This document shows positions 1 through 6,710 of a DNA stretch of 6,710 nt, in pieces. The position numbers and the translations under genes are program-made. Where the stretch lies: positions 1 to 6,710 of the forward strand of contig JAJECB010000056.1 in assembly GCA_022822245.1 (NCBI GenBank), in the 5' to 3' direction. This DNA comes from Gammaproteobacteria bacterium. Its GTDB lineage: Bacteria > Pseudomonadota > Gammaproteobacteria > HK1. Numbering within the stretch: position 1 is the first letter of the stretch; the number at the start of each line of letters is the position of its first letter. The notes beneath the pieces were generated by a model. The model saw only the letters and a list, made by a program, of their open reading frames with translations, did not search any database and was not told the DNA's origin.

Positions 1-1
1 G

Positions 2-1435
2 CGCGGCCTCGCCCCGTCGGCCTCGGCCGCGCGGACCCTCAACCAGGAGTCCGGCATCGAGAGCGAGACGCTGCAGCGCTTCCTCGCGCGCAACGCCGGG
101 GTCGCCGAGGGGCGGCTGAGCCCGAAGGCCGAGAAGGCGATGCGCCAAGCCTTCTCGAAGACCGTGCTCGTGGTCGACGAGGGCTCGCTCGCCTCGACCG
201 TCCAGGCGCGGGACCTCCTTCGCATCGCCACTGCCCTTCGCCTCCCCCGCGTGGTGCTGGTCGGCGACGCGAAGCAGCTCGACGCGGTCGACGCCGGCAA
301 GCCCTTCGCGCAGCTCCAGGCCGCCGGCATGCGGACGGCGGAGATGCGCGACATCCTCCGCCAGCAGGACCCCGCGCTCAAGGCCGCCGTCGAGGCGAGC
401 CTCGGAGGGGACATCGAGCGCGCGTTCGAGAAGCTGGGCGAGAGCGTCGCCGCGGTCAAGCCCGACAACCTCCCGGGCGCCGCCGCCGCGCGCTGGCTCG
501 CACTCTCCCCCGAGCAACGCGAGCGCGCCGGGCTCATCGCCCCGAGCCACAAGCTCCGCGAGGGCATCAACGCCATCATCCGCGAGCGGCTCGTCCGTGA
601 CGGCACCGTGCGGGGGCCGGCCGTGACCACCGAGCGCCTCGTCTCGCGCGGCTACACGAACGCCGAGAAGACGCTTGCCGCCCACTACCGCCCGGGCGAT
701 GTGGTGGCCTTCCACCGCCCCTACAAACGCCTCGACATCGAGAAGGGCGACGAGCGCCGGGTGCTCGGCGCCGACCGCAACGAGGGCACCGTCCGCCTCG
801 AAGGGAAAGACGGCGCGCCCGTCTCCTGGAAACCCGCGAAGCTCGCCGCGCGCTCAGGCGGCGTCGAGGTCTACCGCTCCGACACCCTGGAGCTTCGCGA
901 AGGCGACCGCATCCGCTGGACCCGCAACGACGCAGGGCTCGGCCTCGTCAACAGCGCCACCGCCGAGGTCGCGGGGGTGAAGGACGGGACCGTGTCGCTC
1001 CGGCTCGAAGACGGGCGCACGCTGGACTTCCGGGCCGGCGACCCGCAGCTCCGCCACATCGACCGCGCCTGGGCGGCGACCGTGCACGCCTTCCAGGGCC
1101 GCACCGTCGACCACGTCATCGCCGCGATGGAGGCGAATCACCCCCACCTCACCACCCAGAAGTCCTTCTACGTCGAGATATCCCGCGCCCGCCACCGCGC
1201 CGAGCTCGTCACCGACGACCGCGAGGCGCTGAAGGAGCGGCTGGAGGCCGCCACCGGGGAGCGCATCGCCGCATTGGAAGCCGTCGCGCCCGACCAGGGG
1301 AAGGCGGCGGAGCCGGAGCGCGGGCCGGAGCGGGAGGCGGCCCCAGAATCCGGACCCTCGGCCTCCACGGGGCACAGCGCCACACCCGACAAGGCCCCCG
1401 CACCCGGGCGCGTCGAGGCCGAGCGCGCGCTGTAG
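2..1435 (+). CDS. MobF/TraI-type conjugative relaxase-helicase, C-terminal part (5' end outside window)
   Basis: The frame is open from the left edge, so the start codon and the N-terminal relaxase domain lie outside; 477 residues are visible. Superfamily 1 (RecD/TraI-like) helicase motifs appear in order: the motif Ia region GLAPSASAARTL at residues 2-13; motif II VLVVDEG near 55-61; motif III VLVGDAKQL near 85-93; a motif IV-like GLIAPSHK near 177-184; motif V TVHAFQG at nt 1079-1099; and motif VI YVEISRARHR at about nt 1169-1198. Walker A must lie just upstream of the window. After about residue 410 the chain turns into a Pro/Ala/Glu-rich, probably disordered tail. In this family the N-terminal domain nicks and covalently holds the transferred strand at oriT, and the helicase unwinds the plasmid during conjugation. 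The separate N-terminal relaxase domain is inferred, not seen; a stand-alone RecD-like helicase is the alternative. Codon third positions are strongly GC. Confidence 0.88.
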   Translation, partial: RGLAPSASAARTLNQESGIESETLQRFLARNAGVAEGRLSPKAEKAMRQAFSKTVLVVDEGSLASTVQARDLLRIATALRLPRVVLVGDAKQLDAVDAGKPFAQLQAAGMRTAEMRDILRQQDPALKAAVEASLGGDIERAFEKLGESVAAVKPDNLPGAAAARWLALSPEQRERAGLIAPSHKLREGINAIIRERLVRDGTVRGPAVTTERLVSRGYTNAEKTLAAHYRPGDVVAFHRPYKRLDIEKGDERRVLGADRNEGTVRLEGKDGAPVSWKPAKLAARSGGVEVYRSDTLELREGDRIRWTRNDAGLGLVNSATAEVAGVKDGTVSLRLEDGRTLDFRAGDPQLRHIDRAWAATVHAFQGRTVDHVIAAMEANHPHLTTQKSFYVEISRARHRAELVTDDREALKERLEAATGERIAALEAVAPDQGKAAEPERGPEREAAPESGPSASTGHSATPDKAPAPGRVEAERAL

Positions 1436-1448
1436 ACGCGCCGTGCGC

Positions 1449-1934
1449 CTACCGCTCGCCCGGCTCCTTCACCACAATCGCAGGCCTCTCGGCGACGTCG
1501 TCCTCGTCGACGAACGCGATGCGCATCCCGAAGCCCGCGAAGGTCGCGAGCAGACGCCCGAACGCCGCCATGTCGAGCTCCACGTCGTCGATGAGGACGA
1601 GGGTGCCCCGCTCCCCATCGGTCTCGATATGGCACCGAAGCACCTCTCCGCGTGGCGCCCACTGGTCGCCGCGCTCGTAGTACGCGATCTGCGGGCGTCC
1701 CGGCGGGACCTCGGTGAGCGTCCTGTCCACGCTCGCCGCGTGCTCGGCCTGCGCTTCGAGCATCGCGTTGAACCGCTCGAGCACCTCCGCATCCGTCATG
1801 CCCGCGAGCGCCGGACCGAGCCGCAGGTGGACGCCCCGGATGGACGGATCGGCGTACTCGATGACGGCGGTCTCTCCCTCCCGGGTGATCCGGACCTCGT
1901 CGGGCGAGGCCGGTCGTGGGCGTCTCAGGCGCAT
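1449..1934 (-). CDS. Conserved-looking hypothetical protein, 161 aa
   Basis: This complete frame has an ATG at 1934-1932 and a TAG at 1451-1449. The start is preceded by GGAGAGGAG about 7-9 nt upstream, a good ribosome binding site, so this ATG is preferred over the open frame further upstream. The protein is acidic and without Cys. It starts with a basic patch (MRLRRPRP) and then alternates beta-like and helical stretches: TAVIEYADP, a helix at MTDAEVLERFNAMLEAQ, IPGRP-like VPPGRPQIAYYERGDQW, TLVLIDDVELDMAAFGRLL and GMRIAFVDEDD. It has no signal peptide, membrane segment or catalytic motif that I recognise. It lies tail to tail with the relaxase gene, 13 bp apart, and has the same high GC, so it probably belongs to the conjugative backbone rather than to the accessory genes upstream. 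I cannot assign a function; similar proteins are, as far as I recall, unnamed domain-of-unknown-function proteins. Confidence 0.8.
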   Translation of the reverse strand: MRLRRPRPASPDEVRITREGETAVIEYADPSIRGVHLRLGPALAGMTDAEVLERFNAMLEAQAEHAASVDRTLTEVPPGRPQIAYYERGDQWAPRGEVLRCHIETDGERGTLVLIDDVELDMAAFGRLLATFAGFGMRIAFVDEDDVAERPAIVVKEPGER

Positions 1935-2040: not shown

Positions 2041-2259
2041 CTACTCGGAGTGCGAGCCGCATCGTCCCTCCTGCGCTCCTGCCTCGATCGCGGCCCAACG
2101 CCGGAGATACTGCGCAAACACCCTGCCAATCTCACCCCGATCTTCGATAGTTTCCGCGAAGGTTCCGAACTCGATGCCCTCGATGCCCGCCGTTGCCGTT
2201 GGCAGCACATAGATGATTTCCAGCGAATCGAGAATGGAGACAATCTCGTTTTCGTCCAC
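2041..2259 (-). pseudogene. C-terminal remnant of the PD-(D/E)XK nuclease-like gene
   Basis: This frame continues in phase directly after the TAA that ends the nuclease frame (2271-2269) and runs to a TAG at 2043-2041. It could restart at a GTG at 2259, which has no convincing ribosome binding site. It reads as a small alpha/beta end domain: a hydrophobic strand LEIIYVLPTA, then FGTFAETIEDRGEIGRVFAQYLRRW, a helical amphipathic stretch. Having such ordered sequence in the same phase as the upstream gene, with only KRI between the stop and the GTG, is best explained by one gene cut by a nonsense codon. Counting the TAA as one residue, the intact protein would be about 284 residues. As I recall, nuclease-like proteins of this kind usually end with a similar strand and helix. 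A genuine independent 72-aa gene, translationally coupled, is the alternative. Confidence 0.6.
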
Positions 2260-2268
2260 GATGCGTTT

Positions 2269-2895
2269 TTAGGGCCCACGTGAGGGCGAGAAGATCCTCT
2301 TCTTGAGCGATGGAGGCAATCCAATCAGCCCGAGATCGTTGAGCGCCTTCAGAAGGTGGAAGTACTTCCCGCGTCTACAAGGTTCGGTCGCCTTGACGAT
2401 GCACTTGAGATCGCGCAGCAGCTCGTGCATGCCTCGGTGCACAGCGTCGTTCAGATAGTGAAATTGGTGCTTGTCGAGAGAAGCGCTGTCGGTCTTCAGC
2501 TCGATCAGGAAGGCGTGCTTGCGGTCGGTGGACAGGGCGAGGTAGTCGGCCTTCCTGGAGCCGTTGTCTTCGCGCCGCTTGAGAGGAAACTCGGGAATGA
2601 GGCGGGGATCGATCGCTATATCCCGCGTACTCAGGTGACGGTTGAGCACGTCGGGAAGAAACAGGGCGAAGAAGATGTCGGCACGCCGCTCGAGCTGGTA
2701 GGCGGGCAGATGTCTCCACTTGTCCAGAAGTCCGAACATGGACGCAACTTCGGGGTAGGTCATGTCGATGCCCAAGAGGCTCCCACCGGTCTCCAACGCC
2801 ACGGTGAGCGCTTGCCAATCGCGAGCGAGCTCCCCGAGGCGCGTGTTTGCGCATTGAAGCATCTCGCAGACAGCGACGACCAGCGACCTACGCAT
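2269..2895 (-). CDS. PD-(D/E)XK nuclease-like protein, prematurely stopped
   Basis: The protein has 208 residues from an ATG at 2895. The frame is also open to a GTG at 3003, but those extra 36 residues look unstructured; an ATG at 2862 is also possible, and no start has a strong ribosome binding site. Helical N-terminus with KWRHLPAYQLERRADIFFA near residues 59-77, then IPEFPLK near 100-106. The nuclease signature follows: Asp117 in KADYLAL, Glu132 and Lys134 in LIELKTD, then Gln144 and Tyr147 (QFHY). This D...ExK pattern is the metal-binding core of restriction-endonuclease-fold enzymes that cut DNA; activity here is inferred. It lies downstream of, and on the same strand as, the large helical gene, with starts overlapping or near that gene's stop (2981), so co-transcription is likely. 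The frame ends at TAA 2271-2269, and homologous-looking sequence continues beyond it, so the protein is probably truncated, although the catalytic residues are intact. Confidence 0.72.
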   Translation of the reverse strand: MRRSLVVAVCEMLQCANTRLGELARDWQALTVALETGGSLLGIDMTYPEVASMFGLLDKWRHLPAYQLERRADIFFALFLPDVLNRHLSTRDIAIDPRLIPEFPLKRREDNGSRKADYLALSTDRKHAFLIELKTDSASLDKHQFHYLNDAVHRGMHELLRDLKCIVKATEPCRRGKYFHLLKALNDLGLIGLPPSLKKRIFSPSRGP

Positions 2896-2980
2896 GGACC
2901 CGCTTGTCGGGATCGTGTTCGCTACGTTCGAAGCCGTTGCGCCGGAGTCAGGGCGCGGGGCGTCCTCGCCAAGACGCCGG

Positions 2981-4918
2981 TCATGCTTGGGGCGTGCCAG
3001 CACCTCGACCCTGCCCGCCCGGGGCTGCGTGTTGGCTCTGGGTCAAGCTCGTCGATGGCCTTCGCCCATGGCTGACGGATCGGCTTCCTGCGTCTGGTTG
3101 AGGAATGCGGATGGAACGTTTCGCGGAAGTCGGATTCGATTTCGTTCCATCCTCAAGGCCGCACCGAGTCAGCGTGAAGTGTCGAGTGAGTGGCCCGAAT
3201 GCAATCGTCATGTCTCGGAGTCCTTGCGACGTTGCGATGACCACGTGCCCTTCGGCGACCGTATCGTCGAATGCACGATCGTTGCGGCCCCACCATCCGT
3301 CGACCCACCACATGGTCTCGGCCGCCAAGTCACCAGTCCTGGTACGCCAGCAGCCGGGCCGGCCTGGATCCGGTGTCCAGTCGAGAGTCGCTGCGAGATC
3401 GGGACGAAACGAGAGCCAGTGGGCGGAGGCTTGGAAGAATGCCGACGGATCGTTCTCGATCACCATCGCGTCACCGGCATCAGGCTGGCTTCGGGGGGCT
3501 GTCCCGCCGAGCTCTCGAAGCAGCGTCGGAGGGATGGGAGCCAAGGTTCGGCCAGTGGTCGGCGTGTCTGTTCCAACCGTCGTGCCGCAGGTCAGTTCTT
3601 CTTCCAGGTGACCCCAATTCAGGACCTTCAGGTGGCACCAAGCGCCGATCAGCGTCCGTTTGCCGTGCGTCGAGTGCGTGATGTACTCCCCGAGTCGGTG
3701 CTCGATCTCCGAATACCACTTGGCAATCGTTTGATCGTGTCCCGCTTCCGGTGGCGCCGGCACCGTAGGCGGCCGTTGTTCCGGGTCGCGATTGAGGGCA
3801 TCGACATCGACGGTACGAACAAGGCGATGCAGCCGGCGGGGAAAATCCTCGAGGAGGCCCGCATCCTCCAAATCTCCCAGCACTCGCCCGAAGGCAGCCC
3901 GCGAGGCAGCGTATCGGCTGAGCAGATACGAGTACGGCATATCAGAGACGCGTAGCACCTTCTGTATGGCCGTGTCATCTGGCAGATCGAACATCGCTTC
4001 CGATGCGTAACGGGCGGCGGACGCCAGCAACGTGTCGAGATTCAGCCTCAGGTGTTCCGAGAGACGTCGATACTGGTATTCGTAGGGAGCCAGCGTCACG
4101 GATTCCGATCCTGTGCTCCCAAGCGTGTCCGGAGGCAGAGCCAAGCGGTACATCGGCGACAGCGGCCGGTGAATCGTCCGTGAGGAATCGGCAGCGAGAC
4201 TGCGCATCACTTGGCTCGGGTGGCTTGTCAAGCGGTTCTCAAGTGGACGAAGACAATCCGGAATCGCAAAGCCGTCATGGGTTCTCGCAGCCGCGAGGCA
4301 GCGACCGGCTGCCTCCAACGTGTCGTCACTCGCATCGGCCTGCGCGAATCTTCCAAGCGCATGGGCGGCCTCCTCGTTTGCGGCAAGAAGTGCGCGAGTG
4401 ACGATGCGGGTCGTGGCTTCACGTACCAGCAACGTCGGGTGCGATAGATGGCCAACCGCCAGCTCGGCGAGCGCCGCACCGATTGTGGGGTTGTCGCTCT
4501 TTGCGCGCCGATCTCCAGAGTGCGGAAGAAGCCACCACCGGCAGCCGTGATCGGAAAGAACATCCGGATCCGGCAACTCGAGCGTCTCCGCGATCCCGTC
4601 GAGATAGGCGCGGATCTCCGGCCAGATCGCAGCAGCACCGATGTCCGTATCCAGGGCATCGACGACGCTGTCCAATTCCGAGCGCAGGAGACTCGCCAGT
4701 CCGCGGTTGACGGTGACGTGGTGCACGAGGTCCCGACAGGCGTTGACGCGTCCGTCGTGTCCTGACAACCGGACGGCTACGCCGGCTGCTCGCACCCGCA
4801 TTCCGCCGAAATACGGAGACCAGGAATAGGCATCGGCGCTCTGCAGAAGACGGGACGAAAGACGCAATGCCGTATCGCGGTCGCCGTTCCTCTTGTCAGC
4901 GCCGTTACGAAAATGCAC
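2981..4918 (-). CDS. Downstream half of the split large helical gene
   Basis: This frame of 645 residues has a possible GTG start at 4918 and ends at TGA 2983-2981. The GTG lies inside the left inverted repeat of the 194-bp element and has no ribosome binding site, so residues 1-9 are element-derived. Native sequence starts at Arg10 and continues the interrupted helix. HEAT-like repeats follow (for example LSHPTLLVREATTRIVTRALL and LTSHPSQVMRSLAADS), then a Pro-rich linker (PPTVPAPPEAG). A Trp-rich C-terminal module comes last: MWWVDGWWGR near 536-545, GHVVIATSQGLRD, and FGPLTRHFTLTR at 574-585. The final 60 residues are Gly/Gln/Ser-rich and unlike the rest. The nuclease gene follows on the same strand. 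It may not be translated at all unless initiation occurs within the element. Confidence 0.7.
   Translation of the reverse strand: MHFRNGADKRNGDRDTALRLSSRLLQSADAYSWSPYFGGMRVRAAGVAVRLSGHDGRVNACRDLVHHVTVNRGLASLLRSELDSVVDALDTDIGAAAIWPEIRAYLDGIAETLELPDPDVLSDHGCRWWLLPHSGDRRAKSDNPTIGAALAELAVGHLSHPTLLVREATTRIVTRALLAANEEAAHALGRFAQADASDDTLEAAGRCLAAARTHDGFAIPDCLRPLENRLTSHPSQVMRSLAADSSRTIHRPLSPMYRLALPPDTLGSTGSESVTLAPYEYQYRRLSEHLRLNLDTLLASAARYASEAMFDLPDDTAIQKVLRVSDMPYSYLLSRYAASRAAFGRVLGDLEDAGLLEDFPRRLHRLVRTVDVDALNRDPEQRPPTVPAPPEAGHDQTIAKWYSEIEHRLGEYITHSTHGKRTLIGAWCHLKVLNWGHLEEELTCGTTVGTDTPTTGRTLAPIPPTLLRELGGTAPRSQPDAGDAMVIENDPSAFFQASAHWLSFRPDLAATLDWTPDPGRPGCWRTRTGDLAAETMWWVDGWWGRNDRAFDDTVAEGHVVIATSQGLRDMTIAFGPLTRHFTLTRCGLEDGTKSNPTSAKRSIRIPQPDAGSRSVSHGRRPSTSLTQSQHAAPGGQGRGAGTPQA
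4889..4893. repeat. Target site duplication, left copy (194-bp element)
   Basis: CCTCT abuts the TGTCA end of the 194-bp element and is repeated exactly at the other end. Five-base duplications are typical of Tn3-, Tn7- and Tn402-like transposition. Confidence 0.8.
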
Positions 4919-5087
4919 GTAGACGGCCGGTGTGAAGTCGCTGGATCCCTTCAGGCATCTTCTTCAGCATCTCATTGATATCTCGTCTTCTTCGCCGTCC
5001 AGCGGCCAGGGAACAGGCCCTGTCCACCCCGCGATCGCTGCATTTTCGACTTGGCCGATTTCGTGCCATTTCACGCCGGCGGTAGCA
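4894..5087. mobile_element. 194-bp miniature inverted-repeat element (Tn402/Tn5053-like ends)
   Basis: The left end, 4894-4928, and the right end, read in reverse from 5087 to 5053, match at 23 of 35 positions. Shared blocks are TG..A.CGCCG, GAAA, GCACG and CGGCC at the same offsets. The element is bounded by exact 5-bp direct repeats CCTCT (4889-4893 and 5088-5092). Removing it with one repeat restores the interrupted reading frame. The left end begins TGTCA with TGCAC at offsets 21-25. This is the same spacing as the terminal repeats of Tn402/Tn5053-type transposons, which also make 5-bp duplications; the family link is inferred. No transposase fits in the element, so it would need enzyme supplied in trans. 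Confidence 0.82.
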
Positions 5088-6710
5088 CCTCTCGGCCACC
5101 TCGGCGAGCAGGTCGAGCACCTGAACGTCGTCGCGGGTCCCCTCGTCGAATGCTGCGGCCAGCGCTCGTACATCCTCCCTCGACAGCGACCGCTGCTCGA
5201 TGATCGGGGTCCATGAGAACCGAGTGTTGCGTGCCGCGGCCCGCCGCAATGCGATGATGTCGTCCACGGTCCGAGCTTGCGTGACGACCGCAGGCTGCGG
5301 GAGCCGTCGACCGTCGGCGAGTTCCAACACGTTGTGCTCATTCTCCGGGGATACCTCGCTTTCGCTCCGTTCCTGGTCTTCGTCGTCGGTGGCGAATCCG
5401 AGTCCTCGCCGCCAGTCAGCTCGTGTCGTCGGCAACGCATAGATGTCGGTGCGAGCTACGATGTATGCCGCCAGTGTCCTCGCGTGCTCCAGGCCCCAAA
5501 CACGTTCGGCCGCCCCACATATGGATTGAGCGAGGTCCGGACAGGCGTGTCTGCCGGCCCGCGCAAGCAGTTCGGCGGCGATGTCTGCCGCAAGCTCCAC
5601 ACCCGCAGCCCCATCGACGTCCAAGAGCTCCACGTTCGCACGAACGAGCGCCGCAAACGCGTTCACGTGACCGACAGCGCCGTGACGAACGAGATACTCG
5701 AAGATCCGAACCGAGGCCAAGGGAGCCACGGGGGTCACCGCGACGGGAAGGTCAATTGCAGCAGCGCGAGGCGCGCCCTCGGTCATCGGCTCGGCTGCGG
5801 CCAGGATGCGGGCCAGCCAGGCGGCATCACGGAGCAATTGACTCCCTTCAGGCTCATGAAGTGCCTGGGCGAGCCAGGAAACCCATGACGTAAGCTGATA
5901 GTCCTTTCGGTACCCCACACCGAACGCCCTTGGGAGCATCGCTTGAACGAGTTGCCGTGCGGTCTGCATGTCACCGTCGTTCGCGTGCCGCCGGACCAGG
6001 TCTCTTGTTTCGCGGAGACGCGAGTGCACGTCTTCAGTGGCAATGGCGGTCTCGTACGCCGCAAGCGTCTCTCGATACCAAGGAACCGATGCGCCCGTCG
6101 AGCGCAGCTGATCGGCGAGCTCGAGGCGCTGATACGGCGGCCATAGTTCCGGCTCACTTGTGAAGCGATGCGCCAGCATGTCGCTCAACCACTGGGGAAG
6201 ATCGCGGCCGTGGCGCCCAGCCACGGTGGCGACGATCCCCATTAGCTCGATTTTCCTGTCCGCAATTCCCCGAAGGGTCGAACTGCCTCCGTCGCGTGAC
6301 GACAAGAAGACGTCGAGCAATGGCACGAGCGTCGTCCACGCTTCACTCAATGGCGCTGGGCAGTCTGAGAGCGTCCGTGCATCGAGTTTCGCCAGCGTGC
6401 GAGCAGCGGCGTCGATTCGCGCAGCGAGCTGGATTGCATCGGCGTCGCGATGCACGACCGCGTCTGGCGAGAGCGAGTTTCCGGCCGGGGTGTGTGCTTG
6501 CGGGGGAACCGGTGCCGGAACATCGGCTTCGTGAAACCGTTCGATCAAGGGGTGACGATGATGAGGACGACGATGCCAACTCCGCGCTCTGCCGGGCTTT
6601 GCCCGCCTTCGCTCTGTACCATCGTCTCCTCCATCACCGCGTGAGCGAACGCTTTCGGCTTCGTCGGATGCAAGGAGGAAGCGGAGCCGCCAGTACCGAA
6701 AGCGCTGCTC
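4905..6710 (-). CDS. Upstream half of the split large helical gene (5' end outside window)
   Basis: The frame is open from the right edge for 601 residues to TAA 4907-4905. The first visible residues, RFRYWRLRFLLAS, look like the interior of a protein. Residues 17-60 are largely encoded by the 124-bp element and are Arg/His-rich, unlike the flanks. A helical solenoid follows, with a landmark GVGYRKDYQLTSWVSWL near residues 264-280, an acidic linker DDEDQERSESEVSPENE near 442-458, and TVDDIIALRRA near 481-491. The native sequence ends at Arg541 (nt 5088); the last 60 residues, Arg- and Cys-rich, are read from the 194-bp element. A TTG at 6548 could be taken as the start, but it lies in the element's inverted repeat without a ribosome binding site. 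If translated, the product would be a truncated protein lacking its C-terminal 550 or so residues. Confidence 0.72.
   Translation of the reverse strand, partial: EQRFRYWRLRFLLASDEAESVRSRGDGGDDGTERRRAKPGRARSWHRRPHHRHPLIERFHEADVPAPVPPQAHTPAGNSLSPDAVVHRDADAIQLAARIDAAARTLAKLDARTLSDCPAPLSEAWTTLVPLLDVFLSSRDGGSSTLRGIADRKIELMGIVATVAGRHGRDLPQWLSDMLAHRFTSEPELWPPYQRLELADQLRSTGASVPWYRETLAAYETAIATEDVHSRLRETRDLVRRHANDGDMQTARQLVQAMLPRAFGVGYRKDYQLTSWVSWLAQALHEPEGSQLLRDAAWLARILAAAEPMTEGAPRAAAIDLPVAVTPVAPLASVRIFEYLVRHGAVGHVNAFAALVRANVELLDVDGAAGVELAADIAAELLARAGRHACPDLAQSICGAAERVWGLEHARTLAAYIVARTDIYALPTTRADWRRGLGFATDDEDQERSESEVSPENEHNVLELADGRRLPQPAVVTQARTVDDIIALRRAAARNTRFSWTPIIEQRSLSREDVRALAAAFDEGTRDDVQVLDLLAEVAERCYRRREMARNRPSRKCSDRGVDRACSLAAGRRRRRDINEMLKKMPEGIQRLHTGRLRAFS
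5088..5092. repeat. Target site duplication, right copy (194-bp element)
   Basis: CCTCT directly follows the TAGCA end of the element. On the minus strand it supplies the AGG codon (Arg) at which the native reading frame of the large gene stops making sense. Confidence 0.8.
6525..6532. repeat. Target site duplication, left copy (124-bp element)
   Basis: GGCTTCGT abuts the GAAA end of the 124-bp element. The two preceding bases TC also match the last two bases of the element, so the repeat looks 10 bp long; the symmetry of the ends fixes it at 8. Confidence 0.82.
6533..6656. mobile_element. 124-bp miniature inverted-repeat element with 8-bp target duplication
   Basis: The left end, 6533-6555, and the right end, read in reverse from 6656 to 6634, match at 19 of 23 positions (GAAA-CGTTCG-TCA-G-GGTGA, where dashes mark the mismatches). 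Similarity continues weakly inwards (GATG/ACGATG blocks to about 6573 and 6617). The middle has a small perfect hairpin, CGGGC-TTT-GCCCG at 6593-6605. Exact 8-bp repeats GGCTTCGT flank it at 6525-6532 and 6657-6664. Insertion plus duplication is 132 bp, so the host frame is kept. The right end GAAAGCG is one base from GTAAGCG, which I recall as an IS66-family end; that family also makes 8-bp duplications, but the assignment is tentative. Confidence 0.85.
6657..6664. repeat. Target site duplication, right copy (124-bp element)
   Basis: GGCTTCGT directly follows the TTTC end of the element and is identical to the copy at 6525-6532. Confidence 0.82.

Follow-up and report, generated by a model that had tools for sequence, protein, structure and literature searches.

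Most of the known bacterial MITEs are tied to single-protein transposases. Tn402/Tn5053 transposons use a DDE transposase with an AAA+ partner and leave a 5-bp duplication, and the IstA/IstB pair of the IS21 family, also a DDE transposase with an AAA+ ATPase, is mechanistically akin to TniA/TniB; IS21 target duplications measure about 4-8 bp. According to PMC10122671, IS21 TIRs usually carry two or more direct repeats at each end, and two complete repeats are required by IstA. Among the described MITEs, MITEPsy1 is IS5-like, MITEPsy2 has Tn3-like ends and MITEPye1 is IS1182-like (PMC3189936; PMC11578231). In the open-access papers searched we recognised no IS21-derived MITE. Here we describe a miniature element that interrupts a large gene and whose ends resemble those of IS21 elements.

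An interrupted gene for a predicted STAND NTPase

An earlier note on the window (the whole stretch of 6,710 nucleotides that was analysed) had claimed that a large gene is split, with a change of reading frame, by a 194-bp non-autonomous miniature transposon. The features concerned are as follows:

2981-4888, minus strand: downstream half of the interrupted STAND NTPase gene, 635 codons and a stop
4889-4893, no strand: CCTCT target duplication, first copy
4894-5087, no strand: miniature element of 194 bp with TG...CA termini, without a transposase gene
4894-4918, plus strand: outer repeat of one end (L1-like), the top IS21-end match among the 703 TG sites of the window
4905-5069, minus strand: open, putatively coding frame of 54 codons within the element; in two further full-length copies it extends over 63 codons
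4924-4943, plus strand: inner repeat (L2-like), 25 bp inwards, 10/20 identical to the outer repeat and weak alone
5038-5057, minus strand: inner repeat (R2-like), 25 bp inwards, 11/20 identical to the outer repeat and weak alone
5063-5087, minus strand: outer repeat of the other end (R1-like), second-ranking IS21-end match among the 703 TG sites
5088-5092, no strand: CCTCT target duplication, second copy
5093-6710, minus strand: upstream half of the interrupted STAND NTPase gene, with 539 whole codons and no stop, leaving the window

A script run on the window sequence reproduced both the exact CCTCT duplication on either side of 4894-5087 and the 35-bp imperfect inverted ends (23 of 35 positions matching) that the note had described. 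When we asked for TG...CA pairs 100-600 bp apart with a complementarity of at least 23/35 and an exact 5-bp duplication, one pair passed in the window and none in 100 mononucleotide shuffles. The claim that removal restores one reading frame also held: the insert adds 194+5=199 bases, a frame shift of one, and the flanks joined by script with one CCTCT kept form a single open stretch of 1176 codons. As there are no stops in the 539 upstream codons and none in the 635 downstream codons before the final one, both halves are otherwise open, which suggests that the insertion is recent.

Using the downstream half as query we retrieved 34 homologues, of which 21 cover both flanks and 13 the downstream side only. 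Exactly two residues lie between the flank matches in 17 of the 21; the joint in the window would encode ER, spanning the single CCTCT, and the nearest relatives have ER there, some others having different pairs. The other four show gaps of 4, 10, 10 and 14, where the local alignments ended early, and they too lack the insert in the junction alignment; across 4889-5092, where the note had called for comparison with an uninterrupted homologue, 21 proteins thus span the site without it. Furthermore, three MAG loci of our genome collection, one of them titled Acidimicrobiaceae, encode relatives of the split gene, and in two of these the relative is one frame of more than 2000 residues (L001, 2887-9303, 2138 aa; L003, 3145-9330, 2061 aa). 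Since each half forms a frame of its own in the window, they could be taken for adjacent genes with the 194 bp as an ordinary gene boundary, a reading to which we give next to no weight: it is refuted by the homologues that join both flanks in one protein and by the single frames in L001 and L003, and the element recurs in other genes (see below).

The two halves in the window gave no Pfam or PADLOC match, and the N-terminal part of the protein lies beyond the window edge. The intact relative in L001 contains a NACHT/AAA domain and matches the Avs1b models of PADLOC (E 9.5e-24, residues 357-782) and of NCBIfam (E 2.8e-17, but 61.2 bits against a cut-off of 1500 bits), the family models covering it only partly. 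By sequence similarity the split gene is thus a predicted STAND NTPase gene, probably related to Avs1b (Avs-like) and probably with an anti-phage role. Around the intact homologues we also noticed a methylase-like gene (judged by eye) near the STAND gene in L003 and, upstream of the homologue in L001, a strong IS21-type end (1851, plus strand, score 38) that adjoins a frame looking transposase-like by eye.

The remainder of the window begins with the C-terminal helicase part of a MobF-type relaxase (1-1435, plus strand; identity to plasmid relaxases no higher than about 40%), and because of this relaxase part the window probably comes from a plasmid or conjugative island. Adjoining the relaxase gene is a small DUF7713-domain protein (1449-1934, minus strand; start chosen by eye). 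Just downstream of the split gene lies a protein without Pfam or PADLOC match (2269-2892, minus strand), whose FLIELKTD stretch resembles a PD-(D/E)XK nuclease motif.

Ends of the element and the IS21 family

The element shows what is expected of a MITE: it is short and without a transposase gene (194 bp, with the 54-codon inner frame), and its terminal inverted repeats are flanked by a target duplication. The inner frame had no Pfam match at E 1, and the interior compared with the frames of the fetched loci gave nothing convincing (best E 0.011). Neither its open frames nor the frames of the fetched loci yielded istA or istB within the 194 bp, and the element is therefore not an IS21 element; it has only IS21-type ends. 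RNA folding of the element was ordinary (z -1.10), and a scan of the window for Rfam families and tRNA returned none. We also observed that a GTG at 4918 (minus strand), a candidate start in the left end of the element, opens the frame that runs on through the downstream gene half.

For the comparison of ends, IS21 elements were gathered via IstB from relatives of the L001 genome and from the phylum of the L003 genome. Forty loci were inspected (L013-L022 and L043-L072), and 13 had convincing ends that could be read, the other 27 having no confident end pair, other end types or being duplicates. In nine of the 13 a motif near CGCCGGTTGAAAACTG occurs at two places separated by 25 bp, and these elements mostly begin with TGTC. 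Nine elements made up an 18-end profile (eight an earlier 16-end profile), leaving out one near-duplicate (L014) and three with other end types (L048, L051, L059); this set was picked for one end type, and IS21 ends of the ISPre4 type are unlike those of the element. With the 18-end profile the element ends ranked first and second among the 703 TG sites of the window and, with the TG left out, second and fourth among 13316 positions, and none of 5000 column-permuted profiles placed them first and within the first two. The 16-end profile ranked them first and fifth among 13330 window positions; on L001-L003, 1 and 7 of 78884 positions scored as high as the two element ends, the single one being an IS21-type end.

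The inner architecture is also of this kind, in a weaker form. The element begins and closes as TG...CA and each of its ends contains the motif twice, the self-similarity at offset 25 being 10/20 and 11/20. Such values are reached at 2.8% and 0.6% of the positions in the window; the same measure gave 12-19 in the 18 IS21 ends. The inner repeats alone are weak, ranking 465 and 165 among 13316 positions, and in the left end offset 28 gives 9/20 as well. As IstA needs two complete repeats, the weak inner ones mean that the window copy may have ceased to be a good IstA substrate. The ends are of the IS21 type, but even the closest IS21 end collected is 28/45 identical to an element end, which counts against the assignment. 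The 5-bp duplication also falls within what the IS21 elements show: among the nine profile elements it measures 5 bp in L013, L056 and L057 and 6 bp in L019, L052 and L054, while L018 is bordered by a 9-bp repeat and neither L049 nor L058 has one; L110 and L111 show duplications of 7 and 8 bp.

The earlier note had seen Tn402/Tn5053-like termini and hence a derivative moved by TniA-like machinery. The blocks it named, TGTCA at the terminus and TGCAC at offsets 21-25, do occur together with a 5-bp duplication, and the left end matches Tn402 IRi at 13 of 25 positions (the IRi sequence used is matched in full by at least 5000 plasmid records). Nevertheless, 16 and 420 of the 703 TG sites equal or outscore the two element ends against IRi, and 192 and 128 do so against a presumed IRt sequence, whereas against the IS21 consensus the ends rank first and second; the two ends do not both match the Tn402 terminal repeats, and IRi has no peak at +25. 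The IRt end of Tn402 contains an inner repeat too, at roughly 23 bp, and an inner repeat as such is thus not exclusive to IS21. Because the IS21 ends have a similar register and fit both ends better, Tn402/Tn5053 is not the best assignment, and we consider a MITE of that type unlikely. The proposed mechanism was nonetheless near the mark, given the kinship of IstA/IstB with TniA/TniB. Taking the ends together, we consider it likely that the element is, by its sequence, a MITE with IS21-family ends that is moved in trans by a predicted IstA/IstB pair.

Further copies and the search for an autonomous partner

A query of the 54 element residues returned a single protein, P0035, which aligns with the element over 63 codons without gaps at 75% identity, from the first base of the right end to the TGA of the left end; its copy would therefore be equal in length over the 192 readable bases. 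The first 24 residues of P0035 are VapB/RHH antitoxin-like (Pfam matches weak, below cut-off), and its intact VapB-like relatives, P0039-P0056, carry other sequence beyond the join point; the only named one, P0054, comes from a Chromatiales MAG. A profile search then gave 22 proteins, namely P0035-P0038 with the element and 18 with the VapB-like part only. P0036 holds a second full-length copy, on an 8.87-Mb contig, in a host part without assigned family. P0037 follows the element for its first 35 residues and P0038 for its first 25 before diverging, presumably through frameshift or truncation, as seen from the proteins alone. As to the host parts, P0037 has an IS21-family IstA (62% over 109 aa to an annotated istA of the ISSpu5 family) and P0038 a transposase of the IS4 type (match to NF033592 at E 9.6e-7, below cut-off; 59% to an annotated IS4 transposase).

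In all four proteins the host part gives way to the element at CYRRRE, encoded where the right end of the element starts. The right-end codons are the most conserved in the three full-length copies (16/16, 14/16 and 14/16), compared with 20/30, 20/30 and 22/30 for the interior and 11/17, 13/17 and 14/17 for the left end. Counting the window, the element is found in five different genes, P0035-P0038 being known from proteins alone, where target duplications are not readable. Four more copies, fused to four unrelated host proteins, indicate at the sequence level that the element is mobile, and together with the uninterrupted homologues they bear out the central claim of the earlier note. As a separate observation, the copy in P0037 lies within an ISSpu5/ISPsy14-type istA, one IS21-type element nested in another.

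As DNA, the search for further copies that the note had recommended gave pieces only. Plasmids yielded 17 records with stretches of 20-36 bp, the three MAGs of the split-gene homologues likewise only pieces (best E 0.0142), and viral contigs no confirmed copy with end, interior or back-translated patterns; plasmids also had no match to window 2250-6710 as DNA or to the downstream-half protein. At the protein level, profile A2 run on 59 relatives gave six matches of 17.8-20.1 bits in five genomes, two of them covering VapB-like columns only and the other four element columns. Profile A3 gave none in 296 and none in 396 genomes, with the best 15-21 candidates per genome scored and without a positive control, and the element protein profile found one plasmid match at E 0.5 and none in phages. 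The carriers of the element may belong to a phylum other than those searched.

The full-size transposon with the same ends that the note had hoped for did not appear: the genomes searched yielded no complete IS21 element whose ends match closely. With up to three mismatches the left end was absent from 247 and from 148 genomes (sets largely overlapping), and a pattern common to both ends occurred in one of 296 genomes (L012), where no inverted partner was seen. The IS21-end pattern was matched in 22 of 99 relatives, and 30 loci around IS21-type ends contained no other IS21-type miniature element; their only close pair of opposed ends (L074) was discarded for having neither a duplication nor a TG start. 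The IS21 type of the istA in P0037 was also tried as partner and rejected, since among four plasmid relatives L109-L111 have different ends and L112 no convincing pair.

This missing partner in the genomes searched, the weak inner repeats and an identity to the IS21 ends in hand of at most 28/45 would also fit a MITE from some other family that has TG ends and leaves 5-bp duplications, such as an unsampled IS481- or Mu/Tn7-like lineage. The match of both ends to the IS21 profile and the 25-bp repeat step speak against such an origin, the comparison having been made with the IS21 profile only, and we regard it as very unlikely. A MITE with IS21-family ends is the reading retained below.

Proposed mechanism and relation to known systems

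For such a MITE, IstA from a full-size IS21 relative would bind the repeats at each end, IstB would select the target, and strand transfer would leave the 5-bp duplication. The host gene would lose its C-terminal 635 residues and gain a short foreign tail (stop at 4905), and because of this loss and tail the interrupted STAND gene is probably dead. Each of the three full-length copies keeps the inner frame open to its last codons, the one in the window stopping four codons earlier, and this observation is biased, as further copies were detectable only via the inner frame. One could imagine that the IS21-mobilised family, with one conserved frame along almost all of its length, acts as a mobile tail donor besides breaking genes, an insertion in one of three frames adding a fixed basic tail of about 63 residues with a stop, although we find this quite improbable. 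If the IS21 reading is true, the two proteins IstA and IstB would also move very small passengers in trans, and the element would be a minimal natural substrate, 194 bp long with two repeats at each end, on which end and target requirements could be tested. The copies also show such elements interrupting a STAND defence-type gene and, in another case, an antitoxin-type gene.

With respect to known systems, the element resembles IS21 (IstA/IstB) in its TGTCA-type ends, its direct repeats 25 bp apart at each end and its 5-bp duplication, and its plan is the L1/L2-R1/R2 plan of IS21, with a weaker second copy of the motif 25 bp inwards at each end. Unlike IS21, it has no istA/istB, measures 194 bp as against 1988-2262 bp in the 13 elements measured, has weaker inner repeats and has no close full-size partner that we have seen. 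It shares with Tn402/Tn5053 the TGTCA start and the TGCAC register but differs in the end sequence outside those blocks, which misfits, most of all at the right end. It is like MITEPsy1, MITEPsy2 and MITEPye1 in being short, without a transposase gene and bounded by inverted ends, and MITEPsy1 likewise inserts into genes and shifts their frame (PMC3189936; PMC11578231); unlike these three, the element has ends from another family.
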